A stretch of DNA of 58,895 bases, taken from Chloroflexota bacterium (GTDB lineage Bacteria > Chloroflexota > Dehalococcoidia > UBA2247 > RBG-13-53-26). Shown piece after piece: positions 4,714 through 33,311 of this stretch. The first letter of the stretch is position 1, and each line of letters starts with the position of its first letter. Under the pieces are notes generated by a model. The model made no database searches and was not told the origin of the DNA. It saw nothing but the letters and a program-made list of their open reading frames with translations. The translations under genes and the position numbers were made by a program. The stretch spans positions 1-58,895 of the forward strand of contig VGOE01000004.1 in NCBI GenBank assembly GCA_016876035.1. Reading direction: 5' to 3'.

Positions 4714-6041
4714 ATGGGGTGGGCTTTCAAACGGCTGTGGACTATGTCCTCAGTTTCGCCGACTATGAGAGGCTCTCCCGTTCGGCGGTGGTCTTTGATA
4801 TAGCTCGCATAGAGGCGCTGCTAAAGAGGATCGGGAATCCCCACCTGGCAGCCAAATCCGTACATGTGGCGGGCACCAAAGGGAAAGGAAGCACTGCGGC
4901 CATGATCGCCAGCGTGCTGACCGCCTCAGGTTACAGGACAGGCCTCTACACCTCGCCCCACCTCCTCACCATTCGGGAAAGGATACAGGTTGACGGCAGG
5001 CTCATTTCAGAAGGTGAGTTCGCTGCTGTGGTTGAGAGGCTCAAGCCAGAGATCGAGCACGTAAACCGGTTCGGCGAGTTGGGGGAGCTGACCACCTTCG
5101 AAATACTGACCGCCATAGCTTTTGCCTATTTCAAAGAGAGAGCGGTGGATTTTCAGGTGCTGGAGACGGGGCTGGGCGGACGCCTGGATGCTACTAACGT
5201 GGTGAAGCCGGAGGTGTGCGTGATCACCTCCATAAGTCTTGACCATACCGAGGTGCTAGGGGACACGATTGCCAAGATAGCTGCTGAGAAGGCTGGCATC
5301 ATCAAGCCGGGGTGCAAGGTGGTCTGCGCCCCGCAGAAGGCAGAGGCTTTGGCAGTAATAGAGAAGGCATGCCAGGACAGAGGGGCCAGTCTGGTTAAGA
5401 TAGGTGAAAAGATAACGTGGCGAAGGACCAGGATCACTGATTCGAGCCAATCCTTTCGCCTGAAAGGAACTAGGGGCGAGTATGACCTCACCATTCCCCT
5501 CCTGGGTGAGCATCAGTTGGAGAATGCGGCGGCTGCCGTGGCCGCGCTGGAGATCCTGCGTGATCGGGCGCCAGGCCTTTCTGACGGCAGTATTGCCGCA
5601 GGACTAGCGCGGGTCAATTGGCCGGGCCGTCTTCAGGTGTTGCAGAGAAATCCCCTGTTCATTGTTGATGGCGCTCATAACGCCGACTCTGCGCGCAGGC
5701 TGAGGGAAGCCCTCAAGCAGTATTTTGACTTTGACGATGCCATCCTGATAGTCGGCACCTCTCAGGAGAAGGACATCCCCGGAATAGTGGCTGAGCTGTC
5801 TTCACTGACCAGCCAGGTTATTGTCACCCGCTCCGCCCACCCCCGCGCAGCGACCGCCGCCAGGCTTGTGGCCGAATTCTCAAAGTGGGAAGTAAATCCG
5901 GAAGTAACAGAGGATATAGCTTCAGCCGTAGGCTTAGCTCTGGCTAAAGCCAAACCCAGGGATCTTATCTGTGTCACTGGTTCTCTCTTTGTGGTGTCTG
6001 AAGCAATAGAGCACTTAAAGACCAGCGGCTCGGAACAATAA
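4701..6041 (+). CDS. folC: Folylpolyglutamate synthase / dihydrofolate synthase
   Basis: FolC adds glutamate to folates (and to dihydropteroate in bifunctional forms) in the cytoplasm. The 446-residue protein shows the Mur-ligase fold: P-loop AGTKGKGST (about 58-66), folate-site loop TSPHL, the FolC signature LETGLGGRLDATN, SLDHTEVLG, GEHQLENAAAA and the C-terminal VDGAHN motif. The gene starts at ATG 4701, overlapping the end of the amidohydrolase by 13 bases. Its link with mnmG may be functional, since MnmE/MnmG uses a folate-carried carbon. Whether it also has dihydrofolate synthase activity cannot be judged. Confidence 0.96.
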   Translation: MAEINGVGFQTAVDYVLSFADYERLSRSAVVFDIARIEALLKRIGNPHLAAKSVHVAGTKGKGSTAAMIASVLTASGYRTGLYTSPHLLTIRERIQVDGRLISEGEFAAVVERLKPEIEHVNRFGELGELTTFEILTAIAFAYFKERAVDFQVLETGLGGRLDATNVVKPEVCVITSISLDHTEVLGDTIAKIAAEKAGIIKPGCKVVCAPQKAEALAVIEKACQDRGASLVKIGEKITWRRTRITDSSQSFRLKGTRGEYDLTIPLLGEHQLENAAAAVAALEILRDRAPGLSDGSIAAGLARVNWPGRLQVLQRNPLFIVDGAHNADSARRLREALKQYFDFDDAILIVGTSQEKDIPGIVAELSSLTSQVIVTRSAHPRAATAARLVAEFSKWEVNPEVTEDIASAVGLALAKAKPRDLICVTGSLFVVSEAIEHLKTSGSEQ

Positions 6042-6277
6042 CGGCATAGGAGATATCAAGTAGTGCTCAGTTGTAATAGTCCCTATCATAATAGTGAGCC
6101 AGAGGCCATTCTCCGCTTGCAGCCGATCAGGGCGACAACACAAGCCTGTAATCACTTTGAAAATACCGGTAGACAGGCTGCCTTCCAGACTGTCATTCTT
6201 CCGAAAATAGGCGCTCAGGCTCGCGGCACCAATGGCAAGACGAACTCCTTCCATTGCCAGCGCACAACCATTTTCCT

Positions 6278-6459
6278 ACTTCGTGGTGCCCATGTAAATG
6301 GGCATGACGGATTCCCGCGGAAGCGGGAATCCAGGAATTGTGTGACGGCAGCCTGCCTCGTCATTTTCATTCCTTGTGGTGCTGGCTACAAGCCAGAATA
6401 AAAAATTGCTACGAAAGTCCGACGCTTTCATTCTTTGTGGTGCTGGTTTGAGCCAGCAT
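6278..6459. repeat. Three spaced units of CTTYGTGGTG plus hairpin
   Basis: Each unit has a TTYGTGGTG box followed at once by a small stem-loop. Unit 1 (6278-6307): TTCGTGGTG then GCCCAT..ATGGGC. Unit 2 (6368-6397): TTGTGGTG then CTGGCT-ACAA-GCCAG. Unit 3 (6428-6459): TTGTGGTG then GCTGGTTTGAGCCAGC. The stem bases differ between units while the box and the geometry stay the same, which suggests that structure is conserved rather than sequence. Confidence 0.55.
6309..6332. repeat. Perfect palindrome, REP-like
   Basis: GGATTCCCGC (6309-6318), loop GGAA, GCGGGAATCC (6323-6332). This type of palindrome is a common dispersed repeat in bacterial genomes. It has no T-run after it, so a terminator role is not supported. 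Confidence 0.6.
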
Positions 6460-6737
6460 GGGTAATTCTGGGCGTAGTGAAGAATCTCATTTCGCTCATT
6501 TCGGCGAGAAAGCACTGGCCTGTTCCGGCTGAAACTGGCTATCGTTGCATGGCGAAGGCTGAGACCACTGCTTCGTCTTCTGCCAGGGCGAACCCATGTG
6601 ACCCTCGCGGTTTTTTCGGGCATTTGACAAGGCCATACCCCGACCGCTATCATAGGAAAACGGTTGCCTATGACTGACATCGCTTATGCCTGCACCAGTG
6701 ATTCCCCCCAATTTCATCCCCACGGAGAAAACATAGA

Positions 6738-7514
6738 ATGCAAACCAAAATCATAAGAATCATACCTTGCCTGGATATAAAGGACGGCAGAGTAGTTAAG
6801 GGAGTAAAGTTTGTTAACCTTAGAGATGCCCGTGACCCAGTGGAAGCCGCAGCGGCCTACTGCAAGGAAGGGGCCGATGAGCTGGCTTTCCTGGACATCG
6901 CTGCCACCGTCGAAGGAAGGCCCACCAGGCTCGAATGGGTGGAGAAGGTCAGAAAGGCAGCCACCGTCCCCTTCACTGTAGGTGGTGGGATCAGAGACGT
7001 CGCCGACATGAAGAAGCTCTTCGACCTCGGGGTGGACAAAGCCTCCATCAATACTGCGGCTGTCAAGAACCCAGACCTTATCAAGGAGGCCTCTCGTACC
7101 TTCGGTAAGGAACGGGTTGTGGTTGCCATCGATGGCAAGAAGAACCCAACGGGGGGCAAGCTACCCAGGCTTGAAGTAGTGATAAGGGGTGGCATGGAGG
7201 GGGCCGGACTCGACATCGTGGAATGGGCCAGGAAGGCAGAGAAACTGGGGGCAGGGGAGATTCTGTTGACCAGCAAGGATGCCGACGGTACAAAAGAGGG
7301 CTACGACCTGGAGATGACCAAAGCGGTGGCAGAGGCCGTCCAGATCCCAGTTACCGCTTCGGGCGGAGCTGGCAAGCTGGAGCATTTCTATGAAGCTGTG
7401 GTGATAGGCAGAGCCTCTGCCGTGCTGTGTGCCTCCGTCTTCCACTTTGGGGAGATCACTATCCCTCAGGCGAAGAGGTATCTCGCTGGGAAGGGTATCC
7501 CTGTAACGCTCTGA
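6738..7514 (+). CDS. hisF: Imidazole glycerol phosphate synthase cyclase subunit HisF
   Basis: HisF is the (beta/alpha)8 barrel that, with HisH, converts PRFAR and ammonia to imidazole glycerol phosphate and AICAR in histidine synthesis. The 258-residue protein has PCLDIKDGRVVKG with catalytic Asp13, VVVAIDGKK with catalytic Asp132, VGGGIR, LLTSKDADGTKEGYD and ASGGAG, so both catalytic acids are present. The usual Met in LLTSMD is Lys here. It stands alone: no hisH, hisA or other his gene is in the window, and a repeat-rich spacer precedes it. The ATG at 6738 has only a weak purine stretch, GGAG, upstream. Confidence 0.95.
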   Translation: MQTKIIRIIPCLDIKDGRVVKGVKFVNLRDARDPVEAAAAYCKEGADELAFLDIAATVEGRPTRLEWVEKVRKAATVPFTVGGGIRDVADMKKLFDLGVDKASINTAAVKNPDLIKEASRTFGKERVVVAIDGKKNPTGGKLPRLEVVIRGGMEGAGLDIVEWARKAEKLGAGEILLTSKDADGTKEGYDLEMTKAVAEAVQIPVTASGGAGKLEHFYEAVVIGRASAVLCASVFHFGEITIPQAKRYLAGKGIPVTL

Positions 7515-29586: not shown

Positions 29587-30507
29587 ATGCCTACCGCATC
29601 TATCATAAGGATCAGGAATGTCGTCAAGACCTTTGGGCCGATTACCGCCGTTGCTGGAGTGGACCTGGACGTGGCCCAAGGTGAGTGCTTCGGGTTGCTG
29701 GGGCCCAACGGCGCTGGCAAGACCTCCCTGGTGCGCATGATTATTGCTGCTTCCCCTCTCACCCAGGGCAGCATCTGGGTAGACGGCCACGGCGTTAGCA
29801 AAGACGCCAGACGGATTAAGGCCAGCCTGGGTGTGGTGCCGCAGGAGGATAACCTTGATCCCGATCTGACCGTGCTGGAGAACCTGATCACCTTCGCCCG
29901 TTATTTCGACATACCCAGGGCAGAGGCCAGGGCACGGGCGTTGGACAACCTCCGACTCTTCGAACTTCACGAGAGACAGAAGGCCAAAATCGATGAGCTA
30001 TCGGGAGGCATGAAGCGACGTCTGCTCATCGCCAGAGCTATCATCAACCGGCCCAAGCTTCTCATTTTGGATGAGCCTACCGTCGGCCTTGACCCTCAAA
30101 CCAAGCACCTGGTGTGGCAGAAGCTCCGGTCTTTCCGAGAGCAGGGGATGACGCTTTTGCTAACTACTCAGAACATGGATGAAGCCTGGCGTCTTTCCGA
30201 CCGCCTGGCCATTATGAACGAGGGTAAGATTATTGCCCTGGGCTCCCCGCGGGACCTTGTCAGCCAGTATGGGGGCAATCTGGTCCTGGAGGCCCAGCCG
30301 CCACTGGAGGAGAAGAACAGAGTCCTCAGCCGGTTGAAGGAGCACGGCTTTCAATGGGAAGAGATAGAAGACAGGCTGTACATCTTCCAGGGCGATGGCC
30401 AGATGCTGGAGGAGGAGTTGAAACAGGAACTGGTCATCGTGAACCAGCACGTCCCTACCCTGGAGGACGTTTTTCTGAGGTTAACGGGGAGGTCAATACG
30501 GGAATGA
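29587..30507 (+). CDS. ABC transporter ATP-binding protein (DrrA/NodI-like)
   Basis: A 306-residue ABC ATPase: Walker A GPNGAGKTS (about 38-46), Q-loop VVPQEDNLD, signature LSGGMKRRL, Walker B LLILDEPTVGLDPQT and switch His region LLLTTQNMDEAWRLSDR. The C-terminal extension of about 80 residues is like that of DrrA-type exporters that pump drugs or lipids. Such proteins need a membrane partner, normally the next gene; here only a 15-codon start of a reading frame follows. The TGA overlaps an ATG (ATGA at 30504-30507), the usual coupling to a permease gene. Confidence 0.93.
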   Translation: MPTASIIRIRNVVKTFGPITAVAGVDLDVAQGECFGLLGPNGAGKTSLVRMIIAASPLTQGSIWVDGHGVSKDARRIKASLGVVPQEDNLDPDLTVLENLITFARYFDIPRAEARARALDNLRLFELHERQKAKIDELSGGMKRRLLIARAIINRPKLLILDEPTVGLDPQTKHLVWQKLRSFREQGMTLLLTTQNMDEAWRLSDRLAIMNEGKIIALGSPRDLVSQYGGNLVLEAQPPLEEKNRVLSRLKEHGFQWEEIEDRLYIFQGDGQMLEEELKQELVIVNQHVPTLEDVFLRLTGRSIRE

Positions 30508-30757: not shown

Positions 30758-31177
30758 CTAAGCCTCCGCTTCGCGGAGATATTTGCAGAGCCCGACCATG
30801 ATCTTGTACGACAGGCCTGGCACCGTCTCAAGCAACTGTTTGAATGACCTGGCATGCACCACCAACAGTCTCACGTCGGTGTCAGCAATAACTGTGGCCA
30901 TGCGCGGCCGTTGATCAATTAGAGATATTTCCCCGAAGAAGTCATTTGCCGAAAGACGGTTGATGACTTTCCCTTCCTTTTCAACCCTTGCCTGCCCTTC
31001 GATGATGAAGATGAATTCCTGTCCCTTGCTGCCCTGTTGAGCCAGCACAGTCCCCTGCTTCTTCCGCACCTCATCGGCATATCTGGCAACCTCATCCAAA
31101 TTTCGTTTGCTGAGGCCTTTGAACAGAGGCACACTTCTAAGAAGATCGCTCTTATACGAACGCCCAAGTAATCTCAT
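30758..31177 (-). CDS. Cyclic nucleotide-binding domain protein
   Basis: A 139-residue protein consisting of one cNMP-binding beta-barrel. The phosphate-binding cassette reads FGEISLIDQRPRMATV, with the Glu and Arg that hold ribose and phosphate in cAMP/cGMP receptors. No DNA-binding or enzyme domain follows, so it must act through a partner. ATG 31177 is chosen for its AAGGAGG four bases upstream; the open frame extends further but has no such site. It lies 84 bases after a membrane adenylate cyclase gene on the same strand, suggesting that the two make and read the same signal. Confidence 0.87.
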   Translation of the reverse strand: MRLLGRSYKSDLLRSVPLFKGLSKRNLDEVARYADEVRKKQGTVLAQQGSKGQEFIFIIEGQARVEKEGKVINRLSANDFFGEISLIDQRPRMATVIADTDVRLLVVHARSFKQLLETVPGLSYKIMVGLCKYLREAEA

Positions 31178-31261
31178 AATCCCTCCTTGTTCCGTTTGCC
31201 AACAATATATGATTCCACACATGCCTTGTCAACATTCGGGAGTCAGTCCAGCGCTGCACGC

Positions 31262-32527
31262 TTACCTGAGGGATGTGACCTCGTAAACGGTAAAGGCCAC
31301 TTCTTTACCTTTGAAGTGCTGGGGCCCGAGTTCGCTTACTGTCACCCTGTCCTTTACCTTCTCGAAGGTTTGTCCACCTATCCAAACTCGCCCTCCAGGC
31401 GCCGCGCCACAAATGCGAGACGCCAGGTTAACCGCATCTCCTATCACGGTGTATTCCGCTCTCTGCTTGGAGCCGACACTCCCCGCAATTGCTTCCCCGG
31501 TGTTGATGCCTATCCCAAATTGCGTGGCAGGGAAGTCAACCAGCTTCTGGTTGATCTCCTGTATCGCTTTTTGGCTCTCGATGGCTGTTTTGACCGCCAG
31601 GAAGGCATGGTCAGGTTGACTCTGGGGAGCGTTCCAGACTGCCATTATGTTATCGCCGGCGAACTTATTGACCATTCCCTCGTTGGCATTGATACGCTCG
31701 ATGATAGCAGAGAAGTATGTATTCAGCGCATCAACAAGTCTGTCAGGCTTGACCTTATCGCAGAGCTGGGTGAAACCTCGCGCATCAGCGAAAAGCACTG
31801 TTACCTCACGGTTCGCCCCGCCCAGAGCCAGTTCGTCTCTATCTGCCAGTTCAATGATCGCCTTAGCAGCCTGCGGCGAAACATATTTCCCGAATAGGCT
31901 GGTCACCCTTGCTTTCTCAGCCGCTGTCCTTCTCTCGATTATCAGATTGCGTATTATCCAGGCGAAGATGGCCATGCCCATGGCATTGGCGGCAATCATA
32001 GGCAGGCTAACATCTTTGACAAGTTCCCAGGCTCTGTCATAGGGTCGAGCTATCAGCAGCGTTAGACCCATGTGAAAGGATTCCATGGCGGCGGCGAACA
32101 GGGTTGCCTGCCAAACGGCGGGGAACTCTCCTTTCCTCAGCTTGTATATCACCCCGCCCATTAAGCCGGCGATAACGGTAGCCAGAGAGCAGGGAACGTC
32201 AACAAAACCACCGAGGAAGTAACGGTGTATGCCACCGATTACTCCCGCCCCCAGCCCAATTACCGGCCCCCCTACAAGTCCACCGACCATAGGGCCGAGG
32301 TCTCTAATATTGGCTATAGCGCCTGAGGGCAGTTTTATCCCACCGTAGGTGCCGAATATCGACATGGCCCCGAAGACCAGGATAAGGACAACTTGATTCT
32401 GGAAGCTGAATTGCTTGTCCAATATCTCGGTGAAAAACCTGGTGCGGCTCAGAACGTAGGCAAAGACAATTACTACACAGGCTGTTCCAATCAGGTCTAT
32501 CAATATATCGGCAACAGATACTTCCAT
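31262..32527 (-). CDS. Membrane-bound class III adenylate cyclase with LytS-like 5TM domain
   Basis: A 421-residue protein. Residues about 1-195 form a multi-span membrane domain of the 5TMR-LYT type (NIRDLGPMVGGLVGGPVIGLGAGVIGG..RYFLGG), followed by a short linker and a class III nucleotide cyclase domain (about 225-410). The two metal-binding Asp lie in VLFADARGFTQ and KFAGDNIMAVW. Lys in NKFAGD and Asp in YTVIGDAVNLASR are the adenine-selecting residues, so the product should be cAMP. It probably senses a membrane or external signal. The next gene encodes a cNMP-binding protein. Confidence 0.9.
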   Translation of the reverse strand: MEVSVADILIDLIGTACVVIVFAYVLSRTRFFTEILDKQFSFQNQVVLILVFGAMSIFGTYGGIKLPSGAIANIRDLGPMVGGLVGGPVIGLGAGVIGGIHRYFLGGFVDVPCSLATVIAGLMGGVIYKLRKGEFPAVWQATLFAAAMESFHMGLTLLIARPYDRAWELVKDVSLPMIAANAMGMAIFAWIIRNLIIERRTAAEKARVTSLFGKYVSPQAAKAIIELADRDELALGGANREVTVLFADARGFTQLCDKVKPDRLVDALNTYFSAIIERINANEGMVNKFAGDNIMAVWNAPQSQPDHAFLAVKTAIESQKAIQEINQKLVDFPATQFGIGINTGEAIAGSVGSKQRAEYTVIGDAVNLASRICGAAPGGRVWIGGQTFEKVKDRVTVSELGPQHFKGKEVAFTVYEVTSLR

Positions 32528-32771
32528 CTATAAGTACCACGGACCGGCGTTAAGTGTGCTTATCCACTCACACTCTCTCCACAGGGGAACCTTCTCATGC
32601 TTGATCAGTATGGCCTTGAGGGCATCCTGCTTGTTTGTAACATCATGGGCAGGAACTGATAAGGTACCGCAGTAGCAAATTAGCTTCCTCCCTATTCTAG
32701 AGGCGCAACAACCTTATGGCAAACCATCAGCGGGCCGGGCAAAGGTCAGCGGCTGAGCTATTGTCAAGGTA

Positions 32772-32780: not shown

Positions 32781-32843
32781 GGCTGTAAGCCGATGTTGCA
32801 CAACGATCGACACGAAACTGTGTCGTCGGTGAAAGGAGGCGAA

Positions 32844-33311
32844 GTGTACAAGAATATCCTGGTCCCGTTAGACGGTAAGAACCTGGCAGAGGTGGCCCTT
32901 CCCTATGCGATGGAGCTTGCTAAACGCTGTGGCTCAGAGGATATCACTCTAATCGCAGCCATAAAGAGCACCAAGGGCTACAAGCGCGTGACCGGTTACC
33001 CACTGGGGGAAAGGCCAGTAAGCCAGCCCGTGGGCAAGAAGGAAATGAACCTTCAGAATTATCTCGCTGGAGTCGCCCAAAAGCTGCAGGATGAAGGGAT
33101 CAAGGCACAGACGAAAATCGTTCTCGGTAAACCCGCGCAGGCCATTATATTCTACGCTGAACACAACCCTTGTGACCTTATCATTATGGCAACCCGTGGA
33201 CGGGCTGGCCTCAGTAGGTGGATTCGCGGCAGTGTTGCCGCCAGTGTCATCAGGGGCAGTGTTATGCCGGTCCTCATGGTGAAAAGCCCGGGCACTCCAC
33301 CTGGCGCATAG
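32844..33311 (+). CDS. Universal stress protein UspA family
   Basis: A 155-residue single-domain UspA protein. It begins YKNILVPLDGKNLAEVALPYAMELA and has the C-terminal ATP-binding pattern ATRGRAGLSRWIRGSVAASVIRGSVMPVLMV (G-2x-G-9x-G-S type), so it probably binds ATP. The start is GTG 32844, four bases after AAAGGAGG; an ATG at 32793 would add 17 residues unlike the family. The role is stress survival in a general sense; no operon partner is present. Confidence 0.92.
   Translation: MYKNILVPLDGKNLAEVALPYAMELAKRCGSEDITLIAAIKSTKGYKRVTGYPLGERPVSQPVGKKEMNLQNYLAGVAQKLQDEGIKAQTKIVLGKPAQAIIFYAEHNPCDLIIMATRGRAGLSRWIRGSVAASVIRGSVMPVLMVKSPGTPPGA

Follow-up and report, generated by a model that had tools for sequence, protein, structure and literature searches.

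The window analysed here is a 58,895-nucleotide stretch of DNA from a Chloroflexota bacterium of the class Dehalococcoidia (assembly GCA_016876035.1, contig VGOE01000004.1, positions 1 to 58,895). Within positions 30758–32527 of its minus strand it carries a gene for an adenylate cyclase with a 5TMR-LYT membrane domain (421 amino acids (aa), 31262–32527) and, after a spacing of 84 bp, a gene for a small protein consisting of a cyclic nucleotide-binding domain (CNBD; 139 aa, 30758–31177). As read from its sequence, the cyclase gene is a sharp two-parent chimera, each half coming from a different protein family. This origin by domain swap had been missed in a preliminary description of the locus, which correctly recognized the two gene products as a fusion of a 5TMR-LYT domain to a class III cyclase and a neighbour encoding a cNMP-binding domain alone. 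Pfam searches of the open frame of the 421-aa protein detected 5TM-5TMR_LYT (PF07694) at residues 30–194 (E = 5.2e-50) and Guanylate_cyc (PF00211) at residues 240–411 (E = 1.6e-24), both far above the cut-off, and the NXR motif is present in the former as N73-I74-R75. No histidine kinase, HATPase or CHASE2 domain was detected by Pfam in this protein, the cyclase being the only domain to follow the 5TMR. In the 139-aa protein, cNMP_binding (PF00027, E = 1.7e-19) is the sole Pfam domain above the cut-off; no helix-turn-helix or other output domain was detected, and the idea that this protein is a CRP-type regulator was discarded because it lacks a DNA-binding domain.

The two parental lineages were distinguished by blastn. 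Nucleotides 1–616 of the cyclase gene (31912–32527, minus strand), which encode the first helix and the S-component-like 5TMR domain, align without gaps and at 78% identity to the 5TMR portion of a 5TMR-PP2C gene in another genome of the same order (G012). Nucleotides 621–1260, corresponding to the catalytic half (31262–31907, minus strand), are 73% identical to the CHASE2-cyclase gene of the organism's own genome (L051:4883–6667, contig 2). The same division appears at the protein level, where residues 1–208 match a 455-aa frame in G012 at 78% and residues 196–420 match a 598-aa frame on the organism's own contig 2 at 70%; by Pfam, the 455-aa frame encodes 5TMR plus SpoIIE/PP2C and the 598-aa frame CHASE2 plus cyclase. 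Among 60 genomes searched (the organism's own and 59 relatives), a full-length match to the 421-aa protein was found in the own genome only. The sensor half, which also aligns with BtsS and PyrS, groups in phylogenetic trees with 5TMR-PP2C proteins, with support of 97/96 for six rows that include a 5TM-only protein of G228, and of 89/89 for the inner five rows; of these five, three were confirmed by Pfam as 5TMR-PP2C and another (G285) is truncated where its contig ends. The catalytic half groups with the own CHASE2-cyclase and with a protein of G052 (99/98). Parent-type receptors comprising 5TMR and SpoIIE/PP2C are present by Pfam in G012, G349 and G339. The own genome, which is 97.7% complete, encodes a single 5TMR protein and two class III cyclases, and thus no parent 5TMR-PP2C gene was found there.

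The ends of the two blastn matches place the fusion joint between nucleotides 616 and 621 of the gene (31908–31911, minus strand), at residues 206–207. The top PDB match of the 421-aa protein, 6fht (named Bacteriophytochrome,Adenylate cyclase, and presumably the PaaC construct), is aligned from residue 206. The joint stands 5–6 residues ahead of the sequence FGKY (residues 212–215; 31883–31894, minus strand), which in the alignment is the counterpart of -FGRY-, described in PMC5995499 as conserved in the cyclase-transducing element; in that study an artificial sensor couples in a manner that depends on which helix is attached there. In one receptor-cyclase chimera the element was reported to be essential for passing the signal on (PMC9552081), and 15 joints were tried between the receptor CqsS and a cyclase (PMC4821796). 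According to these three reports, laboratory receptor swaps onto class III cyclases function, given the right joint.

The catalytic half retains every residue with an assigned catalytic role in the class III family: the alignment shows D248 and D292 (metals), K288, and N367 and R371 (transition state). With positions transferred by the mammalian numbering scheme, Thr360, seven residues before Asn367, is the adenine-selecting partner of Lys288. The adenine-selecting pair, previously given as Lys and Asp, is therefore Lys288/Thr360, the combination of class IIIb (sAC-like) cyclases; threonine occupies this position in nine of the ten alignment rows, the exception being the Lewinellaceae row. Adenylate cyclase activity is predicted from this complete active site.

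The combination of the two halves appears to be rare, a claim made for the sampled Chloroflexota genomes and the plasmid collection. When the whole protein was used as query, 118 of the 393 genomes sampled from the class gave a match, as did 259 of the 400 sampled from the phylum; the two samples overlap, and no more than four candidates per genome were scored. The survey of the fusion proposed in the preliminary description thus came back to the own genome, with no second match covering both halves among the matches listed from these 393 and 400 genomes. No 5TMR domain was present in eight cyclases (the seven reaching furthest into the sensor half among the matches listed, and one more); the N-terminal parts of six of these contain CHASE2, one a response regulator and one no named domain. 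A tblastn search of the plasmid collection gave 532 records, and the one that covers at least 80% of the query is an annotated sensor histidine kinase. Fusion partners of 5TMR reported in PMC11109136 are histidine kinase, GGDEF, EAL, PAS, GAF and REC domains, together with MCP, SpoIIE and NRAMP, which are termed "unprecedented"; the word cyclase does not occur in the main text of that article. No literature joining PF07694 with PF00211 was found, and in the only paper found to mention both "5TMR-LYT" and "adenylate cyclase", the latter refers to a two-hybrid assay. The domains and the kinds of parent are thus already known, and it is their natural combination that is unusual.

The phosphate-binding cassette of the window CNBD reads G82 E83 ... 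R92 M93, and retains both the Glu (E83) and the Arg (R92) on which nucleotide binding in this domain family depends; binding of cyclic AMP (cAMP) by the 139-aa protein is predicted from this pair. In the CNBD tree the protein clusters with G158 and G187 proteins that are likewise stand-alone CNBDs (100/99), which rules out the alternative that it was inherited together with the catalytic domain from a CHASE2-cyclase locus. Its six closest relatives (51–59%) are divided between G158, with four, and G187, with two. One relative in G158 (L152:4863–6718) is a stand-alone CNBD, with the cassette Arg changed to Gln, followed on the same strand after a gap of ~50 bases by an alpha/beta-hydrolase-class III cyclase, making a further CNBD-cyclase pair in which the input domain is of another kind. 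A second relative adjoins an 81-aa cyclase remnant and lies ~5 kb from a cyclase. The supposition that relatives of the window CNBD never occur near cyclases is accordingly wrong for two of the six. G158 encodes 14 cyclases over the cut-off in 2.2 Mb, and two of its four CNBD relatives are near one, as compared to about one-third of one expected by position, a number too small to lean on.

Across the own genome, which encodes eight CNBDs, both Glu and Arg are kept in only three: the window protein, a stand-alone CNBD and a CNBD-aldehyde dehydrogenase. The window CNBD is located 84 bases from the 5TMR-cyclase, the CNBD-aldehyde dehydrogenase ~50 bases from the CHASE2-cyclase, and the intact stand-alone CNBD 1.9 kb upstream in the same cluster as the CHASE2-cyclase; the chance that all three would fall within 2 kb of the two cyclases is 1 in 56. 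Both of the organism's own CRP-type regulators, identified by their helix-turn-helix (L003 and L005, contigs 48 and 57), lack the cassette Arg, and one also lacks the Glu. The FND pattern of the contig 57 CNBD is common to CNBDs in G354, G334, G141 and G138. The comparison was extended to seven Dehalococcoidia genomes, namely the own genome and six relatives picked for a CNBD gene near a CHASE2-type cyclase, which together encode 33 CNBDs. Here the cassette is intact in nine of the ten CNBDs within ~4 kb of a cyclase and in four of the 23 others, none of which is near any PF00211 match in these genomes; the Fisher p-values of 1.6e-4, or 3.6e-4 without the window's own CNBD, are only a guide since the CNBD proteins are related. 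Of 23 CHASE2-type cyclase neighbourhoods in the class (same-contig copies counted once and L062 left out; several are cut by contig ends, and CHASE2 was profile-checked in two of the 23), 10 include a CNBD gene according to a purpose-built profile, and an MBL-fold gene adjoins the CNBD in eight of these ten (profile-checked in four). The CNBD-cyclase pairing looks meaningful on this sequence evidence, and cAMP receptors in this organism seem to be encoded near its cyclases, in place of a CRP-type regulator. The earlier proposal of a cAMP circuit made of the two window genes is upheld insofar as the circuitry is local, with every intact cassette of the genome close to a cyclase. Its description as self-contained overstates the case, given a second cyclase of the CHASE2 type with two intact CNBDs in its cluster and a separate promoter-like site for the window CNBD gene.

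Several of these loci have features of their own. The CNBD-aldehyde dehydrogenase fusion on the own contig 2 (L051:6717–8477, 586 aa, intact cassette) is encoded directly downstream of the CHASE2-cyclase; from its domain content it is possibly a cAMP-controlled enzyme, and no literature on such a fusion was found among the matches listed. A same-strand island encoding CNBD, MBL-fold, FecR and CHASE2-cyclase proteins recurs in the class, at L051:2571–6667, L012:2520–6702 and L098:2319–6546. The MBL protein of the own island exhibits a weak match to the anti-Pycsar protein Apyc1 (E = 4.7e-4), which is below the cut-off and suggests that this protein might act on a cyclic nucleotide. At L098:6643–8907, G354 encodes a transporter of the sulfate permease family that carries STAS and, at its C terminus, a CNBD with an intact cassette; this gene lies tail to tail with that of a CHASE2 class III cyclase.

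The sensor half belongs to a domain family with a known ligand in E. coli BtsS, which binds pyruvate via Arg72, Arg99, Cys110 and Ser113 and dimerises in its presence, as reported in PMC10653868. Alignment with E. coli BtsS and PyrS shows that three of these four pocket residues are kept, as R75, R102 and C113, which makes a small carboxylate ligand plausible on sequence grounds. The same R/R/C set is kept in all ten other aligned proteins, including output-free 5TM proteins, and so favours a small polar ligand of whatever kind. The gene context of 5TMR relatives points weakly in the same direction: Pfam-checked acetyl-CoA hydrolase/transferase genes are found near 5TMR genes at L075, L115 and L116, a pyruvate-formate-lyase-like enzyme is also encoded near the 5TMR gene at L116, and in the G012 cluster (L115) an acetolactate-synthase-type thiamine-diphosphate enzyme, in two frames (5632–6738 and 6742–7353), is encoded between STAS and 5TMR-PP2C. 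Genes for STAS, 5TMR-PP2C and an RsbW-like ATPase stand in a row in G349 (STAS profile-checked), and the row in G012 is the same apart from the intervening thiamine enzyme (ATPase profile-checked); in G339 the contig begins at the 5TMR-PP2C receptor. No STAS, RsbW-like or thiamine-enzyme partner was found beside the window cyclase by reading of the frames. Stand-alone 5TM-5TMR proteins of ~200 aa without an output domain are encoded at L026:1501–2106, L074:1477–2082, L076:1504–2115 and L077:1471–2100, and at L075/L076 such a gene adjoins an acetyl-CoA hydrolase/transferase gene (profile-checked at L075); these may act in transport, or as receptors whose partner is a separate protein.

Taken together, these features are probably best accounted for by a domain-swapped, ligand-gated receptor-cyclase that delivers cAMP to the neighbouring CNBD. 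In this swap a 5TMR-PP2C receptor would have lost its PP2C end and acquired, from a CHASE2-type class IIIb cyclase, the transducer element together with the catalytic domain. A small ligand, for which a carboxylate such as pyruvate is the likeliest candidate, would bind within the 5TMR helices and favour or rearrange the 5TMR dimer; this change would be passed through the helix to the FGKY element and bring the catalytic domains into a productive dimer, with formation of cAMP. The 139-aa CNBD protein would bind this cAMP and, because it has no output domain of its own, would then act by touching another protein. A more specific version is offered tentatively, and is doubtful as a whole: that the natural swap created a class IIIb cyclase gated through dimerisation by a pyruvate-like carboxylate, whose cAMP is read by a dedicated non-transcriptional receptor in a CRP-free circuit from metabolite to cAMP.

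The two genes may also be separately transcribed. The gap between them contains a promoter-like TTGACA-17-TATATT (11 of 12 consensus positions; 31204–31232, minus strand), and a weaker site (10 of 12; 32694–32722, minus strand) is located 167 bp before the cyclase start. The program-made frame list begins the small gene at an ATG at 31222, which is inside the promoter-like site (31232–31204), while AAGGAGGG, read in the sequence as the likely ribosome-binding site (Shine-Dalgarno; 31181–31188, minus strand), precedes the ATG at 31177; the start is thus most likely at 31177, giving a protein of 139 aa. Five promoter-like sites matching at least 11 of 12 positions were found in the whole window; 30 simulated sequences matched to it in dinucleotide content contained 0.3 such sites on average and never more than 2. 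According to the frame lists, all five are within ~140 bases before the start of a same-strand frame of at least 139 aa, suggesting that a consensus of the TTGACA/TATATT type is probably used by this organism.

A number of observations weigh against the proposed circuit. The fusion was seen in one assembly only. On the sensor side, the fourth BtsS pocket residue, Ser113, which is needed for pyruvate sensing, is replaced by A116; in BtsS the corresponding S113A substitution yields a Kd of 283.6 as compared to 67.3 µM and blocks induction (PMC10653868). The R/R/C residues, being present also in output-free 5TM proteins, are marks of the family and not of a ligand. The AlphaFold model of the 421-aa protein, for which the input alignment consisted of relatives of the cyclase half only, has a mean pLDDT of 57 and values below 50 over nearly all of residues 1–238; it is uninformative for the membrane half, and nothing was drawn from it there. 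On the receptor side, the cassette Arg is followed by M93, where the other 12 intact CNBDs have Ser (a Ser or Thr at this position is common, though not universal, in cAMP-binding CNBDs). One of the ten cyclase-adjacent CNBDs, in G160, has a broken cassette (Arg to Gln), as does one of the two cyclase-adjacent relatives of the window protein, which has lost its Arg. Four intact CNBDs of the seven genomes occur away from any cyclase, one of them being G138:C25, a 230-aa protein of CRP size. No cyclase was found near the other four of the six closest relatives in the 7.5–13 kb scanned. Finally, the CNBD gene seems, from its promoter-like site, to have its own promoter, which together with the 84-bp gap means that a single transcript is possible and not required.

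Some of these points suit an alternative in which the neighbours have no joint function, with the cyclase feeding the contig 2 receptors (the stand-alone CNBD and the CNBD-aldehyde dehydrogenase) and the window CNBD being used separately. This would accommodate the separate promoter-like site, the lack of a cyclase near four of the six relatives in the stretches scanned, and the placement of the CNBD with those of G158 and G187, in a subfamily that differs from the one at CHASE2-cyclase loci. However, the window CNBD is among the only three intact ones of its genome, all of them within 2 kb of a cyclase, two of the six relatives adjoin a cyclase gene or remnant, and read-through from the cyclase gene is compatible with a separate CNBD promoter; the alternative is considered unlikely. 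A second alternative holds that the 5TMR is a membrane anchor only and that the true input is bicarbonate or CO2 acting on the class IIIb catalytic domain. The Lys/Thr signature is in its favour, as such a threonine in sAC-like cyclases is thought to predict bicarbonate regulation (PMC3383692), but the sensor half has kept 78% nucleotide identity to a receptor serving another output and retains R/R/C pocket residues that an inert anchor would not need, and this reading is judged improbable. Also improbable is the proposal that the small CNBD protein is a buffer or sponge for cAMP and not an effector: it has no output domain, and a single-domain cAMP-binding universal stress protein has been proposed to sequester cAMP in mycobacteria (PMC11107214), yet there is no sequence sign of high abundance, and at two cyclase loci a CNBD forms part of an enzyme or a transporter, which points to regulation. 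That the fusion is an artefact of metagenome assembly is very improbable even though it was seen in a single genome (159 contigs, 2.31% contamination) and the 60 genomes searched include no other member of its genus, since the joint preserves the reading frame and coincides with a domain boundary, the longest exact match common to the two parent genes is 10 bases and leaves no repeat to mis-join, the GC (0.524 and 0.537) and GC3 (0.587 and 0.602) of the sensor and catalytic halves agree and are near those of neighbouring genes, and neither parent is identical to its half.

Other genes surround the receptor-cyclase pair. The gene divergent from the cyclase (32793–33311, plus strand) encodes a universal stress protein. 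By analogy with the mycobacterial member of this family that binds cAMP (PMC11107214), it could be a candidate second cAMP binder. An ABC ATPase gene is located at 29587–30507 (plus strand), and reading of the frames shows no permease frame next to it in that orientation; ilvC and leu genes, named by reading and not by profile search, are found ~2–8 kb from the window cyclase.

Whether the membrane parts of adenylate cyclases serve as receptors, and for which ligands, is described as an open question (PMC4821796, PMC12414865). The membrane domain described here may switch its cyclase on, and it offers an unusually testable case: since one member of its family has a known ligand, and both parent kinds are in hand, ligand control of the cyclase can be tested directly. 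The predominance of intact CNBDs near cyclases in the seven genomes, together with the lack of the cassette Arg in the own CRP-type regulators, suggests that cAMP may act mainly on enzymes, transporters and small adaptor proteins in these organisms.

The window proteins can be compared with five kinds of known system. With the 5TMR-SpoIIE (PP2C) receptors (PMC11109136, and those of G012, G349 and G339) the cyclase shares the first helix and the 5TMR, and the same helix up to ERRTAAEK, but its output is a cyclase and no STAS or RsbW-like gene adjoins it by frame reading. With the CHASE2-type class IIIb cyclases (own contig 2 and L012–L019) it has the catalytic domain and the FGKY/FGRY element in common, at 70% protein identity to its own paralogue; it differs in having a 5TMR in place of CHASE2, a CNBD of another subfamily, and no adjoining MBL or FecR gene by frame reading. 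E. coli BtsS and PyrS/YpdA possess a membrane domain of the same family, and the window protein keeps three of the four residues of the BtsS pyruvate site, with Ser113 changed to Ala; whereas these two are histidine kinases that operate with a LytTR response regulator (PMC5552118), the window protein is a cyclase. CRP/FNR regulators share the cNMP-binding domain with the small protein, which differs from them in having no DNA-binding domain. There is also a parallel in design with engineered proteins, CqsS-Rv1625c (PMC4821796) and the phytochrome-cyclases PagC and PaaC (PMC5995499), in which a class III cyclase is likewise joined through its transducer element to a foreign sensor. Unlike these, the window fusion is natural and carries a 5TMR sensor, and its sensor and cyclase are joined in the same region that engineers choose.

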